From NCBI GenBank assembly GCA_017640665.1, contig JAEPQE010000002.1, positions 124,001 to 188,000 of the forward strand: a stretch of DNA of 64,000 nucleotides, in the 5' to 3' direction. The notes under the pieces were generated by a model. That model ran no database searches, was not told the DNA's origin, and was given only the letters and a program-made list of their open reading frames with translations. Within the stretch, counting starts at the first letter, position 1; each line of letters starts with the position of its first letter. The position numbers and the translations under genes were made by a program. Positions 21,114 through 34,547 of this stretch are shown piece after piece. Source of the DNA: Balneolaceae bacterium (GTDB lineage Bacteria > Bacteroidota > Rhodothermia > Balneolales > Balneolaceae).

Positions 21114-21144
21114 CAGGAAATCAGAGCATAGATTTGATTTCCTG
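21114..21144 (-). terminator. terminator at the end of the Pel-like operon
   Basis: CAGGAAATCA (21114-21123) pairs perfectly with TGATTTCCTG (21135-21144) around an 11-base loop. It overlaps the TM2 stop codon. On the minus strand the stem is followed by a T-rich run (21113 down to about 21098), so it fits a terminator for the eleven-gene minus-strand operon. The plus-strand side lacks a T-run. Confidence 0.65.
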
Positions 21145-21462
21145 GGCTACTCCCCTGTTGTACTGAAATGTGAGGTCTTTGTAATTAACTAAATCTACAA
21201 TCACCCCAATGAAACATAACCCGGCAGTAAAGAAGTACAGAATTCCCATCCCAATTTGATTTAGAACAAAGCGGTGAACACCTGCTAATCCCAAAAACCC
21301 AAGAATACATAAAATCATTATAGTTTGCGGGTCTTTTCTTCTTGCCCGATATACGTTTGAAAACTTTTTCATCTGTTCATCACTCATTTCGCTGAATAAC
21401 TTCCCGAGATATAAAGCTTCATCCCCCTGTGCTTCGGGTACATAATCCATAACTTTAGACAT
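21121..21462 (-). CDS. TM2-domain membrane protein
   Basis: The 113-residue protein has a hydrophilic N-terminal half followed by two membrane helices separated by a short turn, the TM2 layout: ILGFLGLAGVHRFVLNQIGMGILYFFTAGLCFIGVIVDLV. The GVHRF turn matches the family's G-x-HRFY-like motif. TM2 proteins are common small inner-membrane proteins without a settled role. It overlaps the DUF2752 gene by 8 bases and is the last gene of the Pel-like operon, just before the terminator. Confidence 0.85.
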   Translation of the reverse strand: MSKVMDYVPEAQGDEALYLGKLFSEMSDEQMKKFSNVYRARRKDPQTIMILCILGFLGLAGVHRFVLNQIGMGILYFFTAGLCFIGVIVDLVNYKDLTFQYNRGVAQEIKSML

Positions 21463-21763
21463 GACAATCCTCCTGTAAATCCATTGTTTGTTTTTGTATC
21501 AAGTTCTTCCAAATTGTGAAGATTCTGGCGCTAAGCCCGATTACGACAACCGGTCCCATAAGATTCGCTTCTAAAGATTCCGAAAATTCTCCTCTGAATA
21601 AAAAAGCGATAGAATGCCCAAGCCCTTCTCCCGGACAAAATGTAAAACCTAATGCCTCAAGTAAACATAAAGAAACACCCTCAACATAAGGATTCATAGT
21701 GGCCATTAACATCAAGCCAATCAAAAACACCACCCATTCGCTATGCCTGTTTATAAACTTCAT
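21455..21763 (-). CDS. DUF2752-like small membrane protein
   Basis: The 102-residue protein has two or three hydrophobic segments. CLLEALGFTFCPGEGLGHSIAFLFRGE resembles the DUF2752 core (usually CPGCGLTRA followed by a short amphipathic segment). The second cysteine is replaced by glutamate here. No function is known for the family. It starts 2 bases after the stop of the 1307-residue deacetylase/barrel gene and overlaps the TM2 gene, so it belongs to the operon at least transcriptionally. Confidence 0.72.
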   Translation of the reverse strand: MKFINRHSEWVVFLIGLMLMATMNPYVEGVSLCLLEALGFTFCPGEGLGHSIAFLFRGEFSESLEANLMGPVVVIGLSARIFTIWKNLIQKQTMDLQEDCHV

Positions 21764-21765
21764 AT

Positions 21766-24700
21766 TTATCGAGTCGGTTTGGGCAATTTCTTTCTAAAAT
21801 AATGAGACACTGTGAAGAATATACGGTTCGAACTATAAATTTTACTTGTAGAAATCTCTGTTCCCAGCCTTAGTTCCCAGTATTTTTTGAATTTATGATC
21901 CAGTTGGAGCCTTCCCGATCCAAATATCCCTTCCGAAAACTCATGCTTTGCCATTAGTTCCAATTCCAGTTTGGTGAAGAAATCGAAGGTATCCGGGTTT
22001 CTGAACCTGAAATCTACTCCCAGCCCTTGTTCAAAGTATTGATTCGGGGTGAAGTACGGAACTCCTGAAGTAAAGTTTTCAGATGCATCAGCCCAGCTTA
22101 AAGATAGAATAGGCCGAGCTCTGAATCGGTTTGATAATATCTGATAGTATAACCTGCCTGTGGCTTCATATTCCGTTACTGAATTTGTGTAGTACATTCC
22201 TGCCGCTGATAAGGAAGTAACCCATTTTGGAGACCAAGTATCTTCTCTATAGCTTTCGAAACGTAATTTATAGTAGTTGTTAATCACAGACTGGTTTGTT
22301 AGCTCAGGGCCATATGACAACCTGCCTGATGTAAACGAACTGGGGCCTGATCGCGAAAGTGATGTAAAAACTTCCGAAAGAAGATCTCCGGAGCCACCAA
22401 ACAGACCTCCCCCCACTTTAAATTCATTAGCCTGCTCAGAATACCTGTTTGAAAATTCATAGCCCAACCCTGCATAGTTACTCAAGGTTGTGCTCCCTGA
22501 GTTTTCAAAGAATAAGTCCTCAAGTTTAAATAAATGAGTTTGATTCTTACGATTTCCAAATTGAAAGGATAAGCCAAATCGGGCGAAACGATTATCAAAA
22601 TTGTCATCTCTATATTCCCCAAAAGCGGATAAACGAATACCTTCTGTCCATCTCATTTCATCTTTCAACCGTTCTGTTTCCTTATCACTAAAAAAAGCAG
22701 GGTATTCTTTATAAAGATCTTTTCTTTGTTCATAACTGAAAAATTGCATTTCGTTATTAATCAGTTGATGACCAGGGCTACTTCCTTTGGGGTCTTTCAA
22801 AAAGAGCGGGTAAAGAATTTCTCTTCCTTCCTCGATAAACCCTTGATAATAGAGCTCTGTTCCAATTTGCACTCGGAGGCTATCATCATCAGGACTTTCC
22901 TTTAATAGTTGATTTGCCTTTTGTTGGTACTCAGAATATAAATTGAGTTGCCCTAACCAACTTAACTTGACGGCTTCATCGAAACCCTCTGCTCTGTTTG
23001 CCCAAAAAAGTGCACTCGGGTATTTATTCAATTCGAATGCATAAATAAGAGCGAAATTAGTAGCAAATTGATCGAGTTGAGGATGAGCGGATAGTGGGAA
23101 ACCTTCAAGAAGTTCAATACTTGTTTTTGAGGAATCATAAAAGAAAGAGCGCTGCATGGTATATGCATATAGTGAATCCGAATCCGGATTAAGCTGAATA
23201 AGACGAAGAAGTTCTGGTTTGATGACAGACCAGTTTTCCTGATTCTCAATCAATCGATTATATCGGAGGACAATAGTTTCGCTATTAGGATTCAACTCTT
23301 TTTCTCTAAGTGCCCACCTCAGATTGAATTCTTCAGTAAATAGATCGAGTTTTTGAGTAGCAAAATTTTTCACATCTATCACTTCAGGGCTACGATATCT
23401 AAGCCAAAGTCTCTCCAGAAAATTCTGAGCCTGATTAGTGAGACCTTCCCATCCATAATAGGTGAAAAGTCTTTCAAGATCGTTTTGAACCCATTTAGGA
23501 GAACTGAGCAATCGTCTCTCCAGAATCAATATAGCTCTTCGTATTTCGCTAAATTCGATGCTAAGGCTTATTAACGCCTCTTGTACTTTAATATCATCAG
23601 GATTGTTGTTGTAAGCTCGAATTGCATCTTCAAGCCGTGTATCAATCCAGTCTGCCTGAATCAGCTCAGGATTAGTGATTAAATTTCCAAACTCATCCGT
23701 GAACTCAGTTTGGTATTGGCTGCTTTTTTGAATCACATCGTTTAACTGGGCAGTCCTAAATTGATCATCATATCGGTATTTAGGATCAAAATTAGGCACT
23801 TTCAAAGAATCCAGATTGGTGCTGAACTGATAAAGGGCTCCATCCCATAGTTCAGACATACTAAAGTCTATATCATTATGTGCAAGTTCTTCTTCAAATT
23901 CTTCAGCATTTAGCTCACTTACATACGCAAACCAATAATCCTTTTCTTGATTTGATCTTGACTCATATCCCGGATTTAATAACGGGATTAATGTTCTATG
24001 GTATTGATTCTCTTTATGTAGTACAAAACTATTCTGCCAGTCTTCGGTGATAGCTCCTGCCTTATCTGCGGCGTAATACCTTAATGTAGGATATCTTTCG
24101 TTGGTAAATAAAACCCGGTCTCTGAAAACATGATATAATCCATACCCATGTACAGGATGTGATTTCCATCCGAGCTTCAAAGGATTCCTGCTCGCAAATT
24201 GATCCTCGTCTCGTTGACTTACCTGAAAAACATCATCAGGATGAATGAAATGAGTCCAGATTCCGGTAAGCAACTGCATCCCTTGTTGTTCGAACAGGGA
24301 GTTTTCTCTCATAGTGAACCCACTTGAAATTCTGGGATAGTCAAACAAACGGTCATCCGGTGCATAAGGTTCATAACCAAACTCCCTTCCTGTTCCCAGT
24401 TCTATATCTCCCAGATATAGAGAAGACATGTAACGGATTGAAGGCATTCCTTTCATAATAGCGGAAATACCTGTTGAATCTATGTAATTGGTAGGCGGAA
24501 CATAGGTGACAGGCAAATCTCCCATACGATCAATCCGCCAACGTTTTCGGGCTGCGTACACTGAGCTAGCCATAAAGTTCACATTATCCCAATCTTCTAA
24601 CCAAAGTGAGAAATGATTGTACCCATGAAAGGCAAGCTCATGTCGGGTTTCCAGTATGTCACGTGCAACGGATGCACTTGCATCTACTTCTCTCCCATTT

Positions 24701-25689
24701 TCAATCGTCTTTCCTGCTGTCCATTCGTCAAAATCAAAAGGAGGTGTTACGTTAGCATTATAATTGAACGCAGTCATCGCAGAGTATGAAATGTTGAACG
24801 TGTCAGCAAAAGCCTTCATGTCTGGCCACCAGATATTTGCTACAAATTCAGCATGTGTGACATCATATTCCTCATCTATAGGAGGTAACTTTTCATTATA
24901 TAACGGAGCGGGGAAATCATCCAGAAAAATTGTTGCTACATTGGCCACACTATATGGAATTCCATCAAGTCCTTTTAGAATGGAAGAGAAAATGAGCCCT
25001 CGGTAAAGCTTATTGTACAATAGACTAGTATTAATGGTAATTACCTCCCCGAGACCTACCTGATTAACAACTACTAAGGGATATTCAGGATCATTCCCGG
25101 CACCGGCAGCTATAACCACATCATTTTTAAACTGATTCGAAGCAAGTCCCTCATGAGGAAGTTCGGCCGGAGCATAGTAGGTTTTACCAGCATGCCCCGG
25201 AAAAATATCCCTGTGCAGATGAACCCCCTTCGCAGTTGAATCAATGCTATAGTCAGTAAATGGTAACACGCCTTGCAGAAAAGCAAAATCATCGTAATAG
25301 ACAGCACCAAGGAAAACAATATTATTCCCATTTGCTACGAATTGAGTTAACCGCTCTACAACTGAAGGAGAAAGTTCCGCAATCAATTCTGTAGTGACTA
25401 CTATGGTTCTAACTGATGATTTAATATCCACACCCTCAGATACCAATCCTAAATCTATAGTTTCAACCGGGAGTTTAGCATATTGCATGGCGATGGTGGT
25501 ATGATCCGTCAAAACAGTACTATTGCTATCCTGACGGTGCTTTACTACCAGTACAATCGGGTCCTGATCAATAAGCCCGGACGCATCTATTCTAATCCTG
25601 TTATCGAAATCACAGCTGGTTACAACGAAAAGAACTAAGAGTAAACCTGCGAGGATATTACTGCTGAATCGCATCAGTCCCTTCCTCAT
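21766..25689 (-). CDS. PelA-like deacetylase fused to PelB-like TPR and outer-membrane barrel
   Basis: The 1307-residue lipoprotein (lipobox ending C26) has four parts. Residues 40-245 form a DUF2194-like alpha/beta domain. Residues about 250-520 look like a polysaccharide deacetylase with metal-ligand candidates D258 (FLDDFP) and H355/H359 (HGYNH). Residues about 680-1010 are helical TPR-like repeats. Residues about 1015-1307 are a strand-rich barrel, ending near PKPTR. In Pseudomonas, PelA deacetylates Pel and PelB (TPR plus barrel) exports it; here one chain seems to do both. The start overlaps the preceding gene by 32 bases; an ATG 15 bases downstream (25674) is an alternative. A lipid anchor on a barrel protein is odd. 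Confidence 0.72.
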   Translation of the reverse strand: MRKGLMRFSSNILAGLLLVLFVVTSCDFDNRIRIDASGLIDQDPIVLVVKHRQDSNSTVLTDHTTIAMQYAKLPVETIDLGLVSEGVDIKSSVRTIVVTTELIAELSPSVVERLTQFVANGNNIVFLGAVYYDDFAFLQGVLPFTDYSIDSTAKGVHLHRDIFPGHAGKTYYAPAELPHEGLASNQFKNDVVIAAGAGNDPEYPLVVVNQVGLGEVITINTSLLYNKLYRGLIFSSILKGLDGIPYSVANVATIFLDDFPAPLYNEKLPPIDEEYDVTHAEFVANIWWPDMKAFADTFNISYSAMTAFNYNANVTPPFDFDEWTAGKTIENGREVDASASVARDILETRHELAFHGYNHFSLWLEDWDNVNFMASSVYAARKRWRIDRMGDLPVTYVPPTNYIDSTGISAIMKGMPSIRYMSSLYLGDIELGTGREFGYEPYAPDDRLFDYPRISSGFTMRENSLFEQQGMQLLTGIWTHFIHPDDVFQVSQRDEDQFASRNPLKLGWKSHPVHGYGLYHVFRDRVLFTNERYPTLRYYAADKAGAITEDWQNSFVLHKENQYHRTLIPLLNPGYESRSNQEKDYWFAYVSELNAEEFEEELAHNDIDFSMSELWDGALYQFSTNLDSLKVPNFDPKYRYDDQFRTAQLNDVIQKSSQYQTEFTDEFGNLITNPELIQADWIDTRLEDAIRAYNNNPDDIKVQEALISLSIEFSEIRRAILILERRLLSSPKWVQNDLERLFTYYGWEGLTNQAQNFLERLWLRYRSPEVIDVKNFATQKLDLFTEEFNLRWALREKELNPNSETIVLRYNRLIENQENWSVIKPELLRLIQLNPDSDSLYAYTMQRSFFYDSSKTSIELLEGFPLSAHPQLDQFATNFALIYAFELNKYPSALFWANRAEGFDEAVKLSWLGQLNLYSEYQQKANQLLKESPDDDSLRVQIGTELYYQGFIEEGREILYPLFLKDPKGSSPGHQLINNEMQFFSYEQRKDLYKEYPAFFSDKETERLKDEMRWTEGIRLSAFGEYRDDNFDNRFARFGLSFQFGNRKNQTHLFKLEDLFFENSGSTTLSNYAGLGYEFSNRYSEQANEFKVGGGLFGGSGDLLSEVFTSLSRSGPSSFTSGRLSYGPELTNQSVINNYYKLRFESYREDTWSPKWVTSLSAAGMYYTNSVTEYEATGRLYYQILSNRFRARPILSLSWADASENFTSGVPYFTPNQYFEQGLGVDFRFRNPDTFDFFTKLELELMAKHEFSEGIFGSGRLQLDHKFKKYWELRLGTEISTSKIYSSNRIFFTVSHYFRKKLPKPTR

Positions 25690-27718
25690 TTTCCGGAAAA
25701 ATATTCATTAGTACAGCATTTATCTTAGACTCTTTCTCCCTATTCACGATTTCGTAAATAATGGCATCTTCACTTTCATAATAAACTTCGATAATACGGT
25801 CTTCCAATGTTTCGAAAACTTGAATCCATTGCTGCATATCACTCATAGTACTTTGTGAATTATATAAGATACCTTGCTGAATACCTGAATATGGAGGTTT
25901 TTCGAGAAAAAGAAAGATACTTGCCGGTGGGATTTCCTCTCCTGCCCTCATCGCTTTTGGAAGCTCTAAATACTGTTGGTATAGGGAGTCAATCACACCG
26001 TAATTATCAAGAAAGAACTCATAATTCATAAAAAAATGGCGATTTAATGCCAGCTGCCTGTCAAGCTCTGGCCCTACCGTTGCATAAGTATAGGGTACTC
26101 TCTCCCCTACTATTTCATAATAAGCTTCAAAGAAGCCGTTTGGTAAAGTTTCAGGTAATGCCCGGCTGATAAGTATACCCTGTTGCAAAAAAATTATGAG
26201 CCCAAGTAACCCAGCTGCAGAACTAATATTGATAATATTGTAAGTGTTCTTTGATCGTTTTACCAAGTAGCCAAATAAACGGGATATGTTCAGAAAAACT
26301 ATTCCTAAAAATACAGCAATAGTTACTGCATAAAATAAATTGAGCTGATCCGGATCGATAAGTATATATGAAAATGGAAAGTATGGAGTATAAACGTAGG
26401 CAATGAGCGCAAATAGAACTAAGAAAACCAACTCCTTCTTTTGATCTATCACCTTTAATGCCAACAGAATAATATTAATGATGATCAATACTCCTGCCCC
26501 CATCAGGTAGTACATGCTCAATTCATCCAGAAAAGTAATCAGGTTTGGGAAGTAACTGAATACCAATGTATCAAATAACTCTTGTTGGAAAAAATCACGT
26601 AGTGAAATGCCATTAACCATACAGGCAATGATGTAAGGACTTACAGCTACTGAGGCACTTAGAATAAGGTAAATCAGGGCTTTTGAAAGCCTTGATGCAT
26701 ATAACTTTAATGGCAACGTAAATAATCCCAGGAAAAGAGTAGGCAATAAGACGATTAAGAAGACAAAGAGATTTATCAGGGCAGTGGCAAATACTCCCAT
26801 GACTATATAAAACCAAAAAGCTTTTTTGTCTAACCGGATTTGCCTCAGGAAAAAAACGCAGGTTGGGATGGCGAACGTTAGTGCCAATGAAATTGAATTC
26901 GCTTCAACTTCCATATCGAGAATTATAGGCGTCAAATACATGGGAGTAATCGCATATATCGCCATCCCGAATAGCGCTGCAACTGGGTTTTTATTATCCG
27001 TTATTACATTTATAACCCAATAAATAATAAGTGCCAGAAAAAAACTGGTTAACGCTCCTAATATGTGAAGAATTAACTCGGGAGTAACTTGGGTAAGCGT
27101 ACTGAACACGTGAACAATTACATGAATTCCTTTTGGTTCTGGTATAGCTCCAAAGTAGTTTTGTAAAGAAAGCATCTTCACATTTGTAAGCTCGAAATAC
27201 CAGGTACGGCTAAAAGGTGCTGAATTTTGTACCGCAGGTATTATTCTGATTATAGCAGCCACAGCTGCGAGTAGAAAAGCAATAATTCGGGGAGAAGTAT
27301 CCTTTAGGTTTTTTTCTTTAATCTCCCTTGCCTTTTCGTGCATCCCCCCCTTAAAAAGATTCCAAACAGAAACCGTATTCTCAATCCACCGGACGTGCTG
27401 GGCTATGATATTGGTTTCTATTTTAGTGAGAGCCTCTGAAGTCGTAAGTCCGGTTTTACGCTCTCTGTAAACGTGAACAAGGAATGGGATTAAAAGAAGC
27501 GTAACCAGAAGACTAATAAAGTCATATAGTCCGAGTACAGTGAGAATCATTACATCAACAATAATCAGACCTCCAAGGCCAATCCATGAATACATCAGCT
27601 TGTCGATGCTGTTTTCTTTTTTTATAGAAGGAAGAAATAGTGGCGCAAGTACCCCAAAAAGAAGATAGAAACACAATATAATCCTAAAAACCGCAAACAA
27701 ACCTTGAAAGAGATACAA
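25658..27718 (-). CDS. large polytopic membrane protein of the Pel-like operon, function unknown
   Basis: The 686-residue protein has about 12-13 predicted membrane helices: two or three at the N-terminus, a hydrophilic stretch around residues 85-145, then a long membrane block to about 525 and a soluble C-terminal domain of about 150 residues. The first large loop (NSAPFSRTWYFE) and the general layout resemble GT-C-type glycosyltransferases or polymerases, but I see no diagnostic catalytic motif. In standard pel operons the non-PelG membrane proteins are PelD and PelE; this is not recognisably either. It lies between the hydrolase-like lipoprotein (1-base gap) and the deacetylase/barrel gene. 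Confidence 0.6.
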   Translation of the reverse strand: MYLFQGLFAVFRIILCFYLLFGVLAPLFLPSIKKENSIDKLMYSWIGLGGLIIVDVMILTVLGLYDFISLLVTLLLIPFLVHVYRERKTGLTTSEALTKIETNIIAQHVRWIENTVSVWNLFKGGMHEKAREIKEKNLKDTSPRIIAFLLAAVAAIIRIIPAVQNSAPFSRTWYFELTNVKMLSLQNYFGAIPEPKGIHVIVHVFSTLTQVTPELILHILGALTSFFLALIIYWVINVITDNKNPVAALFGMAIYAITPMYLTPIILDMEVEANSISLALTFAIPTCVFFLRQIRLDKKAFWFYIVMGVFATALINLFVFLIVLLPTLFLGLFTLPLKLYASRLSKALIYLILSASVAVSPYIIACMVNGISLRDFFQQELFDTLVFSYFPNLITFLDELSMYYLMGAGVLIIINIILLALKVIDQKKELVFLVLFALIAYVYTPYFPFSYILIDPDQLNLFYAVTIAVFLGIVFLNISRLFGYLVKRSKNTYNIINISSAAGLLGLIIFLQQGILISRALPETLPNGFFEAYYEIVGERVPYTYATVGPELDRQLALNRHFFMNYEFFLDNYGVIDSLYQQYLELPKAMRAGEEIPPASIFLFLEKPPYSGIQQGILYNSQSTMSDMQQWIQVFETLEDRIIEVYYESEDAIIYEIVNREKESKINAVLMNIFPENEEGTDAIQQ

Positions 27719-27719
27719 A

Positions 27720-28583
27720 CTATTCCCTCCTTATCGTGTTTGCCACTTTTCCAGGCACTCGTGGTAATTGGGAAAGTTGAATATTGCTTATAAAGTAAGG
27801 AGTACCTGTTGTATCCAACCTCGATTTAATCTCAGAAATACCTGAGTTGGATTCAGCAAAATCAATAATAAAAACAGGTATATCATATTTCTTTGATGTA
27901 GAAGTTACCAGTTCATATCGTTCATGAAAGTCACTCAAATTTTTCACATAGTACATTTCATTCTCAAAACTATAACCCGAAGCTACGTCTTCAAGCAATA
28001 CTGCATCAAGTGATGATCTGGTTTCTTCAAGCAAAAATAATCCTGCGTTTTGAATAACGGTGGCAGTTGGATAAAGAGTTCTAATTTTCGTAATTAGTTC
28101 TACCATATAAGGAGCTAAATCCCTTCGTTCTCCATAAGGCGCTACGGCATCAATAGTATCAAGGAACAAGCCGTCTACTCCCTTTCCCATTATTTCGGGA
28201 ATCACTCGATCTAATAAAATAGATTGCACCTCTTTTTTGGAAATGTCGATGTAGGAACTCCCCCAATTTTTATTCACACCTAAAAATCCTTGTTGTTCTA
28301 AAAGTGGGAAGTACCATCGATTTGAATCAACTTCACCCAAAGTAGTGTATGCAATAATTGAAGTACCCGTAGCTTTTAACGCCTGAATCTCAGCTTTTGT
28401 ATAGAAGTCAGGTTCAATGATTACTAACTTATACCCTTGCACCTGCTCAGGACTTACCTTAGAATAACAAACTCCAAATGGGGTTTTATCAAGAATAGAA
28501 TAATCACCAATCCCTGAATATGTATTACAGGCTATGCACATTATAAGTAAACTGATTAAAAAAGCTGCCGGAGTAAATCTCAT
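27720..28583 (-). CDS. GH114-like/PelA-hydrolase-like lipoprotein
   Basis: The 287-residue protein has a lipoprotein signal ending at C19 and a TIM-barrel resembling endo-alpha-1,4-polygalactosaminidase and the hydrolase domain of PelA. Visible motifs are SIIAYTTLGEVDSNRW, GVDGLFLDTIDAV (D142) and AVLLEDVAS (E198), which sit where catalytic acids are expected. PelA's hydrolase cleaves alpha-1,4-linked aminosugar polymer. Here it stands as its own gene, apart from the deacetylase in the 1307-residue protein. The gene starts 2 bases after the HD-GYP stop and ends one base before the membrane protein gene. It probably trims or recycles the polymer in the periplasm or at the outer membrane. Confidence 0.8.
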   Translation of the reverse strand: MRFTPAAFLISLLIMCIACNTYSGIGDYSILDKTPFGVCYSKVSPEQVQGYKLVIIEPDFYTKAEIQALKATGTSIIAYTTLGEVDSNRWYFPLLEQQGFLGVNKNWGSSYIDISKKEVQSILLDRVIPEIMGKGVDGLFLDTIDAVAPYGERRDLAPYMVELITKIRTLYPTATVIQNAGLFLLEETRSSLDAVLLEDVASGYSFENEMYYVKNLSDFHERYELVTSTSKKYDIPVFIIDFAESNSGISEIKSRLDTTGTPYFISNIQLSQLPRVPGKVANTIRRE

Positions 28584-28585
28584 CT

Positions 28586-30166
28586 TTAATCATCAGTACC
28601 AAGTTGACAACAAAGCTCCCAACCCATCATTTTGATTAGCTCGATTACAGTTGGTACTAACACCATATCAAATTGTTGATCTGCACGTTCTATAATACTT
28701 TGTGTTAGCTGATCAATCCATTCATCTGCCGATTTCGAGTTATCATTTTTATTAGACTCAATAAATTCGACGATGTATTCAAAAATACCGATCACTTTTC
28801 CGGTCCAAGAGATTTCCTCTGCACTTAATCCACGGGGACTTCCATCACCGCTTACCCACTCCTGATGAGTTAACACTCCTTGTTTAATATCCTCATGAAT
28901 CGGAAGCTGATCGATGAGTTTATACCCCGTTAATGGGTGTGATAGCTCTGAACCAATAGAAATATCTTTTTCAACGCTTACCGAGCCTACATAACCAATA
29001 TCATGTAATTTAGCGGTTGTTTTTATAATGTTTGTTTCATTCTCATCAAGTCCAAATATCATAGCGAAACGTTCAACAAAAGCAATCATCCTTGGTGTAT
29101 GGTACTCTGTTTTATCCCGGGAACGCTCAATAGCCCTAAGCATTTGGTAATAGGTATCAATCAACAATTTCGTAAAAGAATCGTTTTCATCTCTGAAATC
29201 AAGTAGTTTTGCAACTTGATTGGAAACAGCCAGGCCTATCGATTCCATATCCAATTTTGAGGAACCGCCTTCGTTTAAAGTGACAATCCAACCTTTAGAA
29301 AGATCACCCTTAAAAGGAATCAAGCCAGTTTTACCCACTCCGTTAATGTCGAGAACACTATTATCCTTAGGTGTACTTTTAGCTAGTTCGCCTGCAATTA
29401 ATGCGAGTTTCTCTTCTTCAATTCCTTCATTAAAAACCACCATTGGGTTTTCATTTTTATACTCGATTACTGCTCCCGTCGAACAGCCAAAGCCATTCAG
29501 CAAAAATCGCAAGAAAAAACGAGCCAACCCTTCAGTATTTAAAGCCCCGGAACCAAGTTCTGAAACTATTTCCTCCATTTTGTTGCGATATTTATTTCGC
29601 TGCCCTATTTCTTCTTTTTCAATATTAATAAGCCAAATAGAAAGCAACCTGCCAACAATGGAAAGGCGGGGAACAATAACTTCCGGGCATTTCGAATCAG
29701 GACCAACGATATACAAACCCCAAACTTCTCTGTTTTCATCGAATAACGGAATATGCTCGCAGTTTCCTATTGAAGTTGAGGATATACCATGCTCATTCAG
29801 ATCAGGGTACCATTGGATTTTTTGCTGAAGATTCTGGACTTGTTGCTCAAAGTTGTTAATCGCTTCTTTTTCGACGTCCGTATAGTTTGAGGACTTATCT
29901 TTTCCAATTAGGTTCTGAACATTAATAAAACGTTTAAAAAGTACCAGTTCATCTACTTCCTTTTTATAAACAACGTGGACGGGCGCCTTATACAGAATAT
30001 CCATCCATTGAACAATATCCTGAAAAGATGGAGGCTTAGCCCGTGACATGTGTTCAGCTGACAGTGACCAAAATTCGAGCTCGTCTTCTGTATCAAACTC
30101 ACGAATAGAAAACGCTTTGCCTAAGCGGTTCCCTACAAGATTGAAATATGATTTTACGTCTTTCAT
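28586..30166 (-). CDS. GAF-like plus degenerate HD-GYP regulatory protein
   Basis: The 526-residue soluble protein has two alpha/beta, GAF-like segments (about 60-185 and 200-325) and an HD-GYP domain (about 340-520). The HD pair is H388-D389 in HDIGYVG, and H356, H410 and H434 match other metal ligands. The family's HHE and GYP motifs read THQ and GSP (442-444), so it may bind c-di-GMP without efficient hydrolysis. In other pel operons PelD is the membrane c-di-GMP receptor; this gene takes its place between PelG and the hydrolase. Sensory control of polymer synthesis is the likely role, by inference. There are no membrane segments. Confidence 0.78.
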   Translation of the reverse strand: MKDVKSYFNLVGNRLGKAFSIREFDTEDELEFWSLSAEHMSRAKPPSFQDIVQWMDILYKAPVHVVYKKEVDELVLFKRFINVQNLIGKDKSSNYTDVEKEAINNFEQQVQNLQQKIQWYPDLNEHGISSTSIGNCEHIPLFDENREVWGLYIVGPDSKCPEVIVPRLSIVGRLLSIWLINIEKEEIGQRNKYRNKMEEIVSELGSGALNTEGLARFFLRFLLNGFGCSTGAVIEYKNENPMVVFNEGIEEEKLALIAGELAKSTPKDNSVLDINGVGKTGLIPFKGDLSKGWIVTLNEGGSSKLDMESIGLAVSNQVAKLLDFRDENDSFTKLLIDTYYQMLRAIERSRDKTEYHTPRMIAFVERFAMIFGLDENETNIIKTTAKLHDIGYVGSVSVEKDISIGSELSHPLTGYKLIDQLPIHEDIKQGVLTHQEWVSGDGSPRGLSAEEISWTGKVIGIFEYIVEFIESNKNDNSKSADEWIDQLTQSIIERADQQFDMVLVPTVIELIKMMGWELCCQLGTDD

Positions 30167-30176
30167 TTCTTAGTCC

Positions 30177-31802
30177 TCAATATGCGGAGTAATAATAATA
30201 ATCCAAATGCTTAAAAAAGTGCAATGCTCGCAGACCTGTAACTAATGCAAATACAAATGCTCCAGCCAACATACCAATAGTTGCGTACTCAAAACCAAAT
30301 AACCTGCTGCAAAGGAAACCTATTGCAAAATTTACTACCAGTGCCCCGAAGATTGAATAAAGAGCGAAAGGAGCCCGGTTGAGAGTAAAAAAGAACAATG
30401 AGTTTAGGAGCCCGAATACCAGAAATACATAGCCGATACTACCCATCCAGAAAACTTTAAACGTGATAGGATTTGCAAAAAAGTCTCTGATTTCCGGAAC
30501 GTCATTCTCAAATGCCCTCAAACTTAGAATTCCATAATAGGTCAACAGAATAGAAATGGTGCTGATAAATAAAAGTACAATTATTTGTTTTAAGTAGAAG
30601 CGTTTAAAGTGTTTATTAAATTCAGAAAAATTATTTAAGGTGATATTTTTTTGTGCAGGTATCAGGTATCTGGAAAACGTATGAATACTGAATTCTAACG
30701 TAGCTATGGTAATTACAAAACTAATTAAAGCCCAGTCCATACCTAGTTCATAAGGGGTATTGAACCAGATTAGATAAGGCGGCGGCGGTGGACCAGCAGA
30801 CCAGGCTAACAAACGATCAACAAATAGAAACAGAAAGTAGCTTAATCCATAAATGAAATAGCGATAATTATTATAATAGCTTACTTCCTGATTTGGGAGC
30901 GATTGTTTTGTTAACTCCTGACGAAGAGATCGAATTTTAATTCGGTAATAGAGAAACGAATAAACTCCCATCATTAGGGTTGCGATAACAATTCCAATCC
31001 ATTGAGCGAAATAAACTCCAAAAAGTTCTGCCTCCATTATCAAAATTACTATTACAGTACCAACTGTAATTGAAAATAAAATCATAAACCGTAATTCTGA
31101 GGCAAATAATACTGCTGCCGCAAGGAGCAATAGAGAGATAAGAATCATATATGCTACAGATAATAACATCATACCAACAGGGTAAAATGGAAATGCTGCA
31201 TTAATTGCCACCATAACAAATGCACTGATAAGCACAAATGGAATTGCGAACCGCATTACTTTGATAATAGATTTTTCAGCAAGGTAATAGTTCTCTTCCC
31301 CTTTATATTTCGAAACCAACCTCCCAATAACCTGGATAAAACCTCCTGTTAGCACAAAAGCAGCAATAGTACCAAATGCTATTACCGTTGCTTGCGCTTC
31401 ATTAAATCGTAACCAGGCCCAAAGTGCATATTCAAACACAAGAATTGCAATAATCTGGAAAAGCATGGGCATAGACAGAACCAAACCGCCGCTATAATGC
31501 TTTGCAAAAAGTTGAATGGTTTTAAAGAAATTATCTTTGTATTCCTCATTCTCCTTTTTCTTGCTCTCTTCCTTAATTTGCTGTTGGATTTTCTCAAAAA
31601 CAAAATCAGCTAGCTCAAATACATTTTTAAACTCAAAATCAGACTCAGCGTCAATATCCCTGATACCCAGCGATTCGATAGTAGCAGCCACGGCCCAGTT
31701 ACTCATAGGGATATCTACAACTTCCCTGACGGTTTTTACTAGTTCGGTTCTGCGCTCATCAACACTTTCGGCTGAGTTTAATATGTCAGATTGCTGGCTC
31801 AC
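30177..31802 (-). CDS. pelG: PelG-like inner-membrane polysaccharide transporter
   Basis: The 541-residue protein has a soluble N-terminal extension of about 95 residues (ESKKKENEEYKDN) and then about 12 membrane helices. Its order and motifs fit PelG, a Wzx-like transporter of the MOP superfamily: ETELSGxx-type start of the membrane block (AKHYSGGLVLSMP), FLFVDRLLAWSAGPPPP, and FNTPYELGMDWALISF. In Pseudomonas PelG works with PelF, PelD and PelE in synthesis and inner-membrane translocation. Here it overlaps pelF by 17 bases and precedes the HD-GYP gene. The long N-terminal extension is not something I know from PelG of Pseudomonas and may mediate regulation. Confidence 0.82.
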   Translation of the reverse strand: MSQQSDILNSAESVDERRTELVKTVREVVDIPMSNWAVAATIESLGIRDIDAESDFEFKNVFELADFVFEKIQQQIKEESKKKENEEYKDNFFKTIQLFAKHYSGGLVLSMPMLFQIIAILVFEYALWAWLRFNEAQATVIAFGTIAAFVLTGGFIQVIGRLVSKYKGEENYYLAEKSIIKVMRFAIPFVLISAFVMVAINAAFPFYPVGMMLLSVAYMILISLLLLAAAVLFASELRFMILFSITVGTVIVILIMEAELFGVYFAQWIGIVIATLMMGVYSFLYYRIKIRSLRQELTKQSLPNQEVSYYNNYRYFIYGLSYFLFLFVDRLLAWSAGPPPPPYLIWFNTPYELGMDWALISFVITIATLEFSIHTFSRYLIPAQKNITLNNFSEFNKHFKRFYLKQIIVLLFISTISILLTYYGILSLRAFENDVPEIRDFFANPITFKVFWMGSIGYVFLVFGLLNSLFFFTLNRAPFALYSIFGALVVNFAIGFLCSRLFGFEYATIGMLAGAFVFALVTGLRALHFFKHLDYYYYSAY

Positions 31803-33366
31803 TAACCTCTTCTTTTTGTTTTAAAAAGTTAACAACAGATTTCTGAGTAATTGTAGTTGAAAGTGGTTTTTTGGGTTGGTTCATGAGTTTAACATAACTC
31901 TCGTAATACGAATCCACACTTTTCTTTGTGGTGAAATTGACCAAAACCTTTTCGCGTGATTTCTTCCCCAATTCGAGTCTTAGTTCGGTATCATTCAAAA
32001 GTTTGATTACTCCATTGGCAAGAGCTTGAGGATCTCTGGGTTTACACAGGATGCCACATCCTTCAAGAGCATCTTTAATCCCACCTACATCAGTTGCTAC
32101 TACCGGGCGACTACAACTCATAGACTCAATGACGGTATAAGGAAATCCCTCAGAGATGGAGGTAAGTATCGAAATATCACCTTCATTAAAAACCATACTC
32201 GGTTTATCATGAAAACCTCCAAAACGGAAGTTATCGCCTACTCCCAACTCTTTTATTAATAGTTCGCACTTTTCTACATAGTCCTTATCCACGTCTAAAC
32301 TACCGTATACAATGAACTGCACGTTCGGGATTTCTTTTCGAACCAAATCGCAGGTTTTTATCATTGTTTCTATATCCTTCAACGGGAATATATGAGCTAC
32401 AGCTACCACTGTCGGTTGATCTGCTGTATGAGAAGGCTTTAGTGTTGGCTTAAAAATATTAGTGTCCACACCATTATAAATAGGAAGTATTTTAGATTCA
32501 TCCGCTTCAAATTTAACCTCCCATTTTTGGTTGGCAGTAGTAACAGGTGAAATCTGATCTGCGGTGAAATACACCGCTCTTGTAACCAGAATGGATAAAT
32601 TCAAAAGAAGTTTCTTAGAGAAAAAAGGCATATCTGCCTGTCCAAGGTTAATCAGCCTTTCACGAATATAGACCCCATGATCAGTTACCATACTTGGCGT
32701 TCCATATTCATACTTCGCCACTATCGATAGTAAAGCCGGAAAACCTGCAATTGTAGCATGAGTTACATCAACCTCTTTAGGCATTTTAGTAGCAAGGGGC
32801 ATTAAAAAATGATATAGCCACCGCATTCCAAAAGTAACATCGAAAACCCTTGGCTCATCGATAAAATCTTCTTCATCTTTAAAATCTTGTACTAGTCTGC
32901 TCTTAAAGTCAATCCAAAGAGAAGTCTCTTTCATAGTCAATTTATAGTCGTACATCTGGAAGTACTTCCACAGCCCATAAATAATTTCACTTATTTCCTT
33001 TGGGTCTCTATAAGGGTTAAACAGGCATTTCACAAAATCCCTGAATATGGGCATAAACTGAGATTTAACTACTGCCCTGGTTGTCCTTGCTTTTTTTTCA
33101 ATTTGCTTAGAGAAAGGAACCCCCTCATCATAATACTGAACTGGTTCTTCAACACCCCAAAGAGGTATATGAATAATCTTTTTAACGTTCTCCGTTAATT
33201 TATACCTGCTTTCAACAAAGGGATTCCCTGTAATTGCAAGGATATAGAAGTCGATTTTATCCTGAAGCTCAGAACATAAAATATGCGCCCATGTTGAAAC
33301 CCCTCCTCCACTGTATGGATAAGAACCTTCTGTTTCAAATAAAACAATGGGCGTTTTCTTATTCAC
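31786..33366 (-). CDS. pelF: PelF-like glycosyltransferase
   Basis: The 526-residue cytoplasmic protein has the PelF start (LFETEGSYPYSGGGVSTWAH) belonging to the DUF3492-type N-terminal domain, then a GT4 glycosyltransferase domain with VVAVAHIFPLKDIETMI, FRFGGFHDKPSM and the nucleotide-sugar motif ILTSISEGFPYTVIESMSC. Pseudomonas PelF (about 507 residues) polymerises aminosugar units from UDP-GalNAc/UDP-GlcNAc. The length and motifs match. It overlaps the preceding glycosyltransferase gene by 4 bases and pelG by 17, so translation is probably coupled. The first of the two GT genes has the same N-terminal motif but is shorter. Confidence 0.86.
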   Translation of the reverse strand: MNKKTPIVLFETEGSYPYSGGGVSTWAHILCSELQDKIDFYILAITGNPFVESRYKLTENVKKIIHIPLWGVEEPVQYYDEGVPFSKQIEKKARTTRAVVKSQFMPIFRDFVKCLFNPYRDPKEISEIIYGLWKYFQMYDYKLTMKETSLWIDFKSRLVQDFKDEEDFIDEPRVFDVTFGMRWLYHFLMPLATKMPKEVDVTHATIAGFPALLSIVAKYEYGTPSMVTDHGVYIRERLINLGQADMPFFSKKLLLNLSILVTRAVYFTADQISPVTTANQKWEVKFEADESKILPIYNGVDTNIFKPTLKPSHTADQPTVVAVAHIFPLKDIETMIKTCDLVRKEIPNVQFIVYGSLDVDKDYVEKCELLIKELGVGDNFRFGGFHDKPSMVFNEGDISILTSISEGFPYTVIESMSCSRPVVATDVGGIKDALEGCGILCKPRDPQALANGVIKLLNDTELRLELGKKSREKVLVNFTTKKSVDSYYESYVKLMNQPKKPLSTTITQKSVVNFLKQKEEVSEPAI

Positions 33367-34547
33367 AAAACAACTCCGGTTTTCTCAACGGTTTCATTCA
33401 ATAAGAATTGGTAATCAGAAAAAATAGTTTCCCATGTGTGTGTTTTACTAACTCTTTCAAAACGATTTTGAATGAATTCATCTCTATTTATTTTGTCTCC
33501 CCAGAATTGAATTACCTTATCACACAATTCAGAATTAGAGATTTCAGGAGAAAAAGTTAATCCATATTTACTGGTTAAGTCACCTACTTCTCTGCCTATG
33601 GGAAGCACCTTCTTTGATAAAGCTTCAAACATAACTAAGGGCTGAGATTCGTTATGGCTGGTAATTAGAAGCATATCCATTTTTAGATAATAATCTTCAG
33701 CCGATTTATTCCAAACTATGGATACAGAATCATACTTATCAGAACGGGATCTCACAATTTCTTCCAAATCTTTCTCACCGGCATCACTTAAAAGCATAAG
33801 AAATGAACAGTTAAATTTTTTTCTCTGAAATTCATCGACCAGATCAAAAAATTGTAATGGGTTTTTCATTTCCGCACACCTTCCGACCCACCCAAATACT
33901 GGATTATCACAAATAGTAGCTTCAGGGTTGATCCAGGAAGCTGGAATCCCATTTGGAATATACTGTATACCTGATGCCCCTAATTTTTGCTGTAAAGGAA
34001 TATTACATTCTGAAACGGTGATGGTTTCATTAGCTTGTTCATAAACTAAGTTTGCAATCTTTTTAAACAGATAAACAATTTCTTTTTTCTGAGCACCTGA
34101 ATCTGGGATTTTATACCCACATTCTAATGCAACTGCCCCCTTTTCTACCTCCAGCCAGTAAATGGCATGCTCGGTTAAAACTAAAGGCAAATTATGGTCT
34201 TGTGAAATTTTTGCGCCAAGCCATCCTGCAAAACCTGTATTTGTTACATGAATTACATCGTTTTTACTGATACTTGAAAAGTTTATTAATTGATCCAAAT
34301 ACCATGCTTCCAGGGATTGATCCCAATCCTTAATCATTACGGGTGGGGTAATTCTTTGAAATGATTTTACGTTATCGGGAATTGGGTATAAAGCTTTTTC
34401 AGGCTCAAGTGATATAAATGTATCAGTGGCTATTTGAAGAATGGAAAAGCTAAATTGTGGACAATTCTTTATATACTGATATACCCATTCACTTACCCCA
34501 CCCCGATACCAAGGGTAAGTACCTTCAATGACAAGTAATACGTTCAA
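33363..34547 (-). CDS. second PelF-like GT4 glycosyltransferase
   Basis: The 394-residue protein begins with VIEGTYPWYRGGVSEWVYQ, the same signature as PelF, and carries a GT4-type C-terminal domain (GWVGRCAEMKNPLQF, TSHNESQPLVMFEALSK). It lacks about 130 residues relative to PelF. It overlaps the pelF start by 4 bases, which suggests translational coupling and a stoichiometric or sequential partnership. Possible roles are adding a first sugar, a branch, or forming a heterodimer with PelF. The linkage and sugar cannot be read from sequence. Confidence 0.82.
   Translation of the reverse strand: MNVLLVIEGTYPWYRGGVSEWVYQYIKNCPQFSFSILQIATDTFISLEPEKALYPIPDNVKSFQRITPPVMIKDWDQSLEAWYLDQLINFSSISKNDVIHVTNTGFAGWLGAKISQDHNLPLVLTEHAIYWLEVEKGAVALECGYKIPDSGAQKKEIVYLFKKIANLVYEQANETITVSECNIPLQQKLGASGIQYIPNGIPASWINPEATICDNPVFGWVGRCAEMKNPLQFFDLVDEFQRKKFNCSFLMLLSDAGEKDLEEIVRSRSDKYDSVSIVWNKSAEDYYLKMDMLLITSHNESQPLVMFEALSKKVLPIGREVGDLTSKYGLTFSPEISNSELCDKVIQFWGDKINRDEFIQNRFERVSKTHTWETIFSDYQFLLNETVEKTGVVL

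Follow-up and report, generated by a model that had tools for sequence, protein, structure and literature searches.

The stretch of DNA analysed here (the window, 64,000 nucleotides of contig JAEPQE010000002.1 from a Balneolaceae bacterium) carries on its reverse strand a cluster of genes resembling the pel exopolysaccharide genes, whose final core gene encodes a protein of 1307 amino acids (aa). An earlier note on this DNA, made from the letters alone, had proposed that the protein joins in one chain the counterparts of Pseudomonas PelA, a deacetylase, and PelB, an outer-membrane exporter. The open reading frame (ORF) is free of stop codons and encodes an intact single chain. The analysis confirmed that the product is a natural fusion of a PelADA-type deacetylase with an exopolysaccharide secretin composed of a tetratricopeptide repeat (TPR) scaffold and a β-barrel. 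The features of the locus are collected in Table 1.

The N-terminal half of the protein matched PF09960 (DUF2194) over residues 42-561 (E = 3.6e-65), the sole Pfam family in the chain and the one that the earlier note had named. A search of sequences with solved structures matched 9ZAU alone (E = 2.3e-32; query residues 63-490 against residues 54-470). This structure is that of Bacillus cereus PelADA (BcPelADA), an active α-1,4-N-acetylgalactosamine (GalNAc) de-N-acetylase, which founded family CE26 and possesses an N-terminal CBM114 carbohydrate-binding domain (PMC13254593). On this alignment, the metal and catalytic residues D262/D263 and H350/H354 of BcPelADA correspond to D257/D258 and H355/H359, which lie in the motifs FLDDFP and HGYNH, at the places where the note had put them (residues 250-520). 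The remaining active-site residues P405, R458, H488 and D491 correspond to P399, R453, H483 and D486, and D485 also lines up with catalytic residues of BcPelADA. The mapped active-site residues were identical in all of the 45 fused homologues. The homology across both the N-terminal and the esterase domains, together with the complete catalytic set, suggests that the head is a de-N-acetylase of the CE26/PelADA type. We rejected an identity with the four-domain Pseudomonas PelA, since the head is of the CE26 plus CBM114 type, the hydrolase is encoded apart, and Paraburkholderia PelA (the CE21 plus hydrolase type) gave no sequence match to the deacetylase in profile comparison. The "PelA" half of the proposal is therefore kept as regards deacetylase, of the B. 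cereus and not the Pseudomonas kind. The segment that follows (residues 546-684) is the least conserved part of the fusion, with identities of 18-66%, and is partly disordered at residues ~630-680, where the predicted local distance difference test score (pLDDT) of the AlphaFold2 model was 37-57; it likely corresponds to the C-terminal β-rich domain of BcPelADA plus a linker.

For the C-terminal half, an AlphaFold2 model of residues 560-1307, built with 15 related sequences, had a mean pLDDT of 84.7. It showed a small β-rich segment, then 20 helices that pair into some ten TPR-like hairpins and, last in the chain, exactly 16 strands, in agreement with the TPR-like helices (680-1010) and the barrel of then uncounted strands (1015-1307) that had been read from the sequence. 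A profile of the TPR and barrel part gave only weak matches to eukaryotic TPR proteins among PDB sequences, and a fold comparison was therefore needed. When the model was compared with 350,542 PDB chains using Foldseek, the top five matches were BcsC (9b8h and 9b8a, E = 1e-12), PelB of the PelBC complex (9h80, 1.6e-10), PgaA (4y25, 4.3e-10, target TM 0.73) and again BcsC (6tzk); ordinary porins and autotransporters ranked lower and were weaker. The scaffold also matched the consensus TPR structure 8chy (E = 3.3e-7). The predicted arrangement, a TPR-like scaffold immediately before a 16-stranded barrel, is that of the PelB/BcsC/PgaA secretins. Because no sequence similarity to PelB could be detected, the assignment to this class is secure for the predicted fold only, and "PelB" denotes an analogy of architecture; what stands of the "PelB" half is the secretin fold, which BcsC and PgaA match too.

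The fused state was found to be the rule among relatives. A single ORF of 1264-1586 aa was present in 44 of 44 named loci, which span Balneola, Gracilimonas, Fodinibius, Flavobacterium, Maribacter, Mesonia, Christiangramia, Salegentibacter, Zeaxanthinibacter and others of the Balneolaceae, Flavobacteriaceae and further groups. In a survey of 393 genomes drawn across the phylum of the window, the barrel profile, DUF2194 and PelF, searched independently, each hit the identical 27 genomes without exception, although these genomes are related and the overlap is not to be read as an independent-trials probability. DUF2194 and the barrel lay within one ORF (~1270-1370 aa) in all 27, and the other DUF2194 matches in the sample were weak, partial (E = 1e-8 or worse) and in different proteins. 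The trees of the DUF2194 part and the exporter part (45 sequences) were highly correlated (Pearson 0.94), with 27 supported splits in common, of 31 and 32, and one conflict. Since the two trees agree, a single ancient fusion inherited as a unit is likely. In plasmid records, DUF2194 was found in Fusobacteriota only, and Paraburkholderia graminis has the classical pelABCDEFG order. We found no description of this fusion, or of pel in Bacteroidetes or Flavobacterium, in the open-access literature. The accessible part of a large 2020 operon survey describes fission of pelB and gene fusions, BcsZC for one, but lists no PelA-PelB fusion (PMC7112194). Two relatives, of 1650 aa (L019:502-1500, reverse strand) and 1586 aa (L078:11700-12755), are extended C-terminally beyond the barrel and there contain a SPOR domain (E = 2.9e-6 in L019; the match in L078 is weak), which suggests that the tail binds peptidoglycan in the periplasm.

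The lipobox noticed earlier is present in the window protein (VTS-C26) and in about 40 of the 45 relatives (a strict pattern finds 34, and the remainder were recognised by eye); the residue following its cysteine is not conserved. The Balneola clade (L063-L067) has instead an ordinary cleavable sequence of the signal-peptidase-I type ending in AQ. Since the lipobox is lost in this clade, it is not an essential insertion mechanism, and the idea of an unusual way of inserting or tethering the barrel found no support as a general mechanism; an obligatory special insertion device was rejected on the same grounds. Lipidated barrel proteins are already represented by, for example, the OprM/CusC family. 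The N-terminal lipid may be a common extra anchor, perhaps replacing the membrane helix of BcPelADA, and would not be required for barrel insertion.

Table 1. Features of the fusion gene and its neighbours in the window (positions are those of the whole stretch)
Feature	Position	Strand	Basis or remark
Fusion gene: lipoprotein signal, CBM114-like domain, CE26-like deacetylase, β-rich segment, TPR-like scaffold, 16-strand outer-membrane barrel	21766..25689	-	1307 aa; ORF, Pfam, 9ZAU, model, Foldseek
Signal sequence with lipobox (VTSC, Cys26)	25612..25689	-	sequence; single N-terminal hydrophobic stretch, 4-30
N-terminal α/β domain, residues 42-245, counterpart of BcPelADA CBM114	24955..25566	-	9ZAU alignment from residue 63
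CE26-type de-N-acetylase domain (predicted), residues 246-545	24055..24954	-	D257, D258, H355, H359, P399, R453, H483, D485, D486
β-rich segment and linker, residues 546-684	23638..24054	-	strands at 584-632 in model
TPR-like helical scaffold, 20 helices, residues 685-1016	22642..23637	-	AlphaFold2 model; Foldseek
16-stranded outer-membrane β-barrel, residues 1019-1297	21799..22635	-	AlphaFold2 model; Foldseek
Membrane protein with 12 transmembrane (TM) segments, no recognised family	25658..27718	-	overlaps fusion gene by 32 nt
GH114 endo-α-1,4-polygalactosaminidase-type hydrolase	27720..28583	-	PF03537, E = 1.4e-13
GAF-like and HD-GYP-like cytoplasmic protein, putatively in the place of PelD	28586..30166	-	PF13487, E = 8e-13; GAF-like part putative
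pelG, exopolysaccharide transporter, extra ~100-aa N-terminus	30177..31802	-	PF16933, E = 2e-9
pelF, GT4 glycosyltransferase	31786..33366	-	NF038011, 156 bits (cut-off 100)
Second PelF-like GT4 glycosyltransferase, shorter	33363..34547	-	NF038011, 92 bits (below cut-off); DUF3492, E = 2e-34

The genes upstream of the fusion, all in the same direction, encode a hybrid histidine kinase, a response regulator, the PelF-like GT4 enzyme, PelF, PelG, the HD-GYP-type protein, the GH114 hydrolase and the 12-TM protein. With pelF and pelG adjacent and accompanied by genes for a deacetylase, a hydrolase and export, the cluster is of the pel type, and the function of the PelA hydrolase domain falls to the separate GH114 gene, two genes upstream of the fusion. 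The order pelF-pelG-[HD-GYP]-GH114-12TM-fusion was kept in the named relatives with a complete flank, except for the second copy of Fodinibius sediminis (L078), in which GH114 precedes pelF; this species has two divergent pel clusters (L073 and L078) with one fusion gene each. Flavobacteriaceae have a five-gene form, pelF-pelG-GH114-12TM-fusion. The 12-TM gene adjoins the fusion in 44 of 44 named loci. Its product belongs to no Pfam family and has a conserved C-terminal part (YSYAVV..NRHxFMNY); a GT-C-like enzyme and an inner-membrane partner are both conceivable. As the start of the fusion ORF lies 32 nt inside this gene, either the two are translationally coupled or the true start is the next ATG, 15 nt downstream.

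Several other observations concern the neighbouring genes. The GYP motif of the HD-GYP-like protein reads GSP (HQEWVSGDGSPRGL), and the protein may be a binder of cyclic di-GMP (c-di-GMP) without hydrolase activity. The extra N-terminus of PelG precedes its first TM segment (at 103) and contains a motif, IESLGIRD, that Flavobacteriaceae PelG has too. The second PelF-like gene and pelF overlap by 4 nt. In most Balneolaceae clusters the fusion is followed by a pair of genes for small membrane proteins (DUF2752 and TM2; 21121-21763, reverse strand); this pair was not found in Flavobacteriaceae clusters. In one flavobacterial locus, a second gene beside pelF (L080:860-1924) encodes another GH114 protein (Pfam E = 2.6e-18), and a gene of similar size and start lies on the opposite strand in another (L098:879-1892).

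The system shares features with several known ones and is identical to none of them. B. cereus PelADA resembles the window protein in its DUF2194-type N-terminal and esterase domains, in all of the named catalytic residues and in its pelF-pelG cluster, but comes from a Gram-positive bacterium and stands alone: its 610 aa cross the membrane once and include no TPR or barrel (PMC13254593). The pel cluster of Cetobacterium somerae (Fusobacteriota, L119) likewise contains GH114, a GAF protein, DUF2194, pelF and pelG, all as separate genes, and its DUF2194 protein (609 aa) stands alone, representing the split form. In Pseudomonas, a deacetylase also works beside a TPR scaffold and a 16-strand barrel encoded in a pel cluster, but as two (or, with the PelC ring, three) separate proteins instead of one chain. 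Pseudomonas PelA combines CE21 and hydrolase domains in one chain, whereas the window has a CE26-type head and GH114 apart; PelB has a membrane helix at its N-terminus and contains 19 TPRs, about twice the number of hairpins in the scaffold of the fusion. PelA docks on TPRs 9-14/15 of PelB, which raises its deacetylase activity (PMC12022489), and PelB exports the chain through its 16-strand barrel with the PelC ring (PMC12141448). BcsC and PgaA, the best structural matches, also place a TPR scaffold before a 16-strand barrel, but have no enzyme domain in the chain and serve other polymers. Zymomonas BcsZC, as described in the operon survey (PMC7112194), likewise joins a periplasmic enzyme acting on polysaccharide to an outer-membrane pore in a natural fusion, but the enzyme is a hydrolase and the system is that of cellulose.

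Taken together, these data make it quite probable that a Pel-type, GalNAc-rich polysaccharide is handled at the outer membrane by a one-chain machine, the product of this gene. In this scheme, PelF would build the chain in the cytoplasm and PelG would move it across the inner membrane. Held in the outer membrane by the C-terminal barrel, and in most species by an N-terminal lipid as well, the fusion would deacetylate part of the sugars with its CBM114/CE26 head, by a Zn-type Asp-His-His mechanism, and the TPR-like scaffold would hand the resulting cationic chain along its groove into the barrel for export. A covalent tether would thereby take the place of the surface on which PelA docks on PelB in Pseudomonas, with the separate GH114 gene covering the hydrolase part of PelA. 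The substrate, the direction of travel, the dual anchoring and the periplasmic placement of the head are those that we infer. That the PelA-PelB interaction raises deacetylation in Pseudomonas (PMC12022489) was counted in favour of this coupling. On balance, though with less assurance, we favour the further view that, in Bacteroidota and their Balneolaceae relatives, all the work of the PelA deacetylase, PelB and PelC is done by the single polypeptide. No other component of this compact Pel system, which counts five genes in Flavobacteriaceae, would then be dedicated to the outer membrane, and the deacetylase would be held covalently in the path of the polymer.

Several results weigh against this interpretation. 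The system differs from Pseudomonas pel in several parts: classical PelD and PelE were not recognised in the cluster, and PelC was not seen there, nor was a separate PelB; Paraburkholderia PelC and PelB queries, run without a positive control, gave no match in the genome of the window. The HD-GYP protein, a putative c-di-GMP module, was not detected in the Flavobacteriaceae clusters. Paraburkholderia PelB, as a single query sequence, reached an hhalign probability of only 0.2% against the TPR and barrel part. The centre of the deacetylase (~residues 384-461) was poorly modelled (pLDDT < 50) from a shallow alignment. It is a weak point that the presumed NodB-type fold of the head rests on homology to 9ZAU and not on the predicted model. 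In Foldseek, the N-terminal model matched TPRs and GH42/GH164-type domains, and 9ZAU was absent from the matches, probably because the esterase core was badly modelled.

The secretin may serve a polymer that resembles Pel but differs in its chemistry, in which case the deacetylase would act on some other N-acetylated sugar; the additional PelF-like glycosyltransferase, the family-less 12-TM protein and an exporter without sequence similarity to PelB would allow this. We regard it as unlikely, since the GH114 galactosaminidase-type hydrolase, the CE26-type active site and PelF/PelG all indicate a GalNAc polymer. A little less probable is a head displayed on the cell surface, deacetylating after export, with the barrel threaded in reverse or serving as a mere anchor. 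Bacteroidota lipoproteins are often surface-displayed, the lipobox is frequent among the relatives, and BcPelADA acts outside the membrane (PMC13254593). However, the helical scaffold lies immediately before the first strand, as in PelB, BcsC and PgaA, where it is periplasmic; the Balneola clade lacks the lipobox; and the SPOR domain after the barrel in L019 would bind peptidoglycan and thus be periplasmic.

Cleavage of the chain in the periplasm by a protease that frees a soluble deacetylase from the pore, in which case the fusion would merely ensure equal amounts of the two, seems to us about as doubtful as a surface head. The poor conservation and partial disorder of residues 546-684 would suit such processing, but no conserved cleavage motif was seen and the length of the chain is kept across all relatives. 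An artefact of frameshift, misassembly or readthrough across two genes, which would have undone the proposal of a natural fusion, is practically ruled out by the single intact ORF in the 44 named relatives, from independent genomes, and in 27 of 27 sampled genomes of the phylum; nothing was found in favour of it.

We return to a single chain that would modify and export a Pel-type polymer. The Pel field still lacks an answer to how PelA and PelB coordinate deacetylation with export (PMC12022489, PMC13254593). The fusion is conserved widely enough, in a pel-type cluster, to be taken as a natural union of both steps, as the earlier note had anticipated, and its fixation in a whole bacterial branch constitutes independent evolutionary support for direct coupling. 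It offers a 1:1, non-dissociating version for structural work, links a Gram-positive-type deacetylase (CE26) to an outer-membrane secretin, and suggests that PelC may not be universally needed. It also extends the recognisable pel cluster to Balneolaceae and Flavobacteriaceae, of which we found no report in the open-access literature. Whereas Pseudomonas aeruginosa makes the two as separate proteins that have to meet, a large group of bacteria from sea and fresh water builds the enzyme trimming this biofilm sugar and its predicted export pore as one protein.

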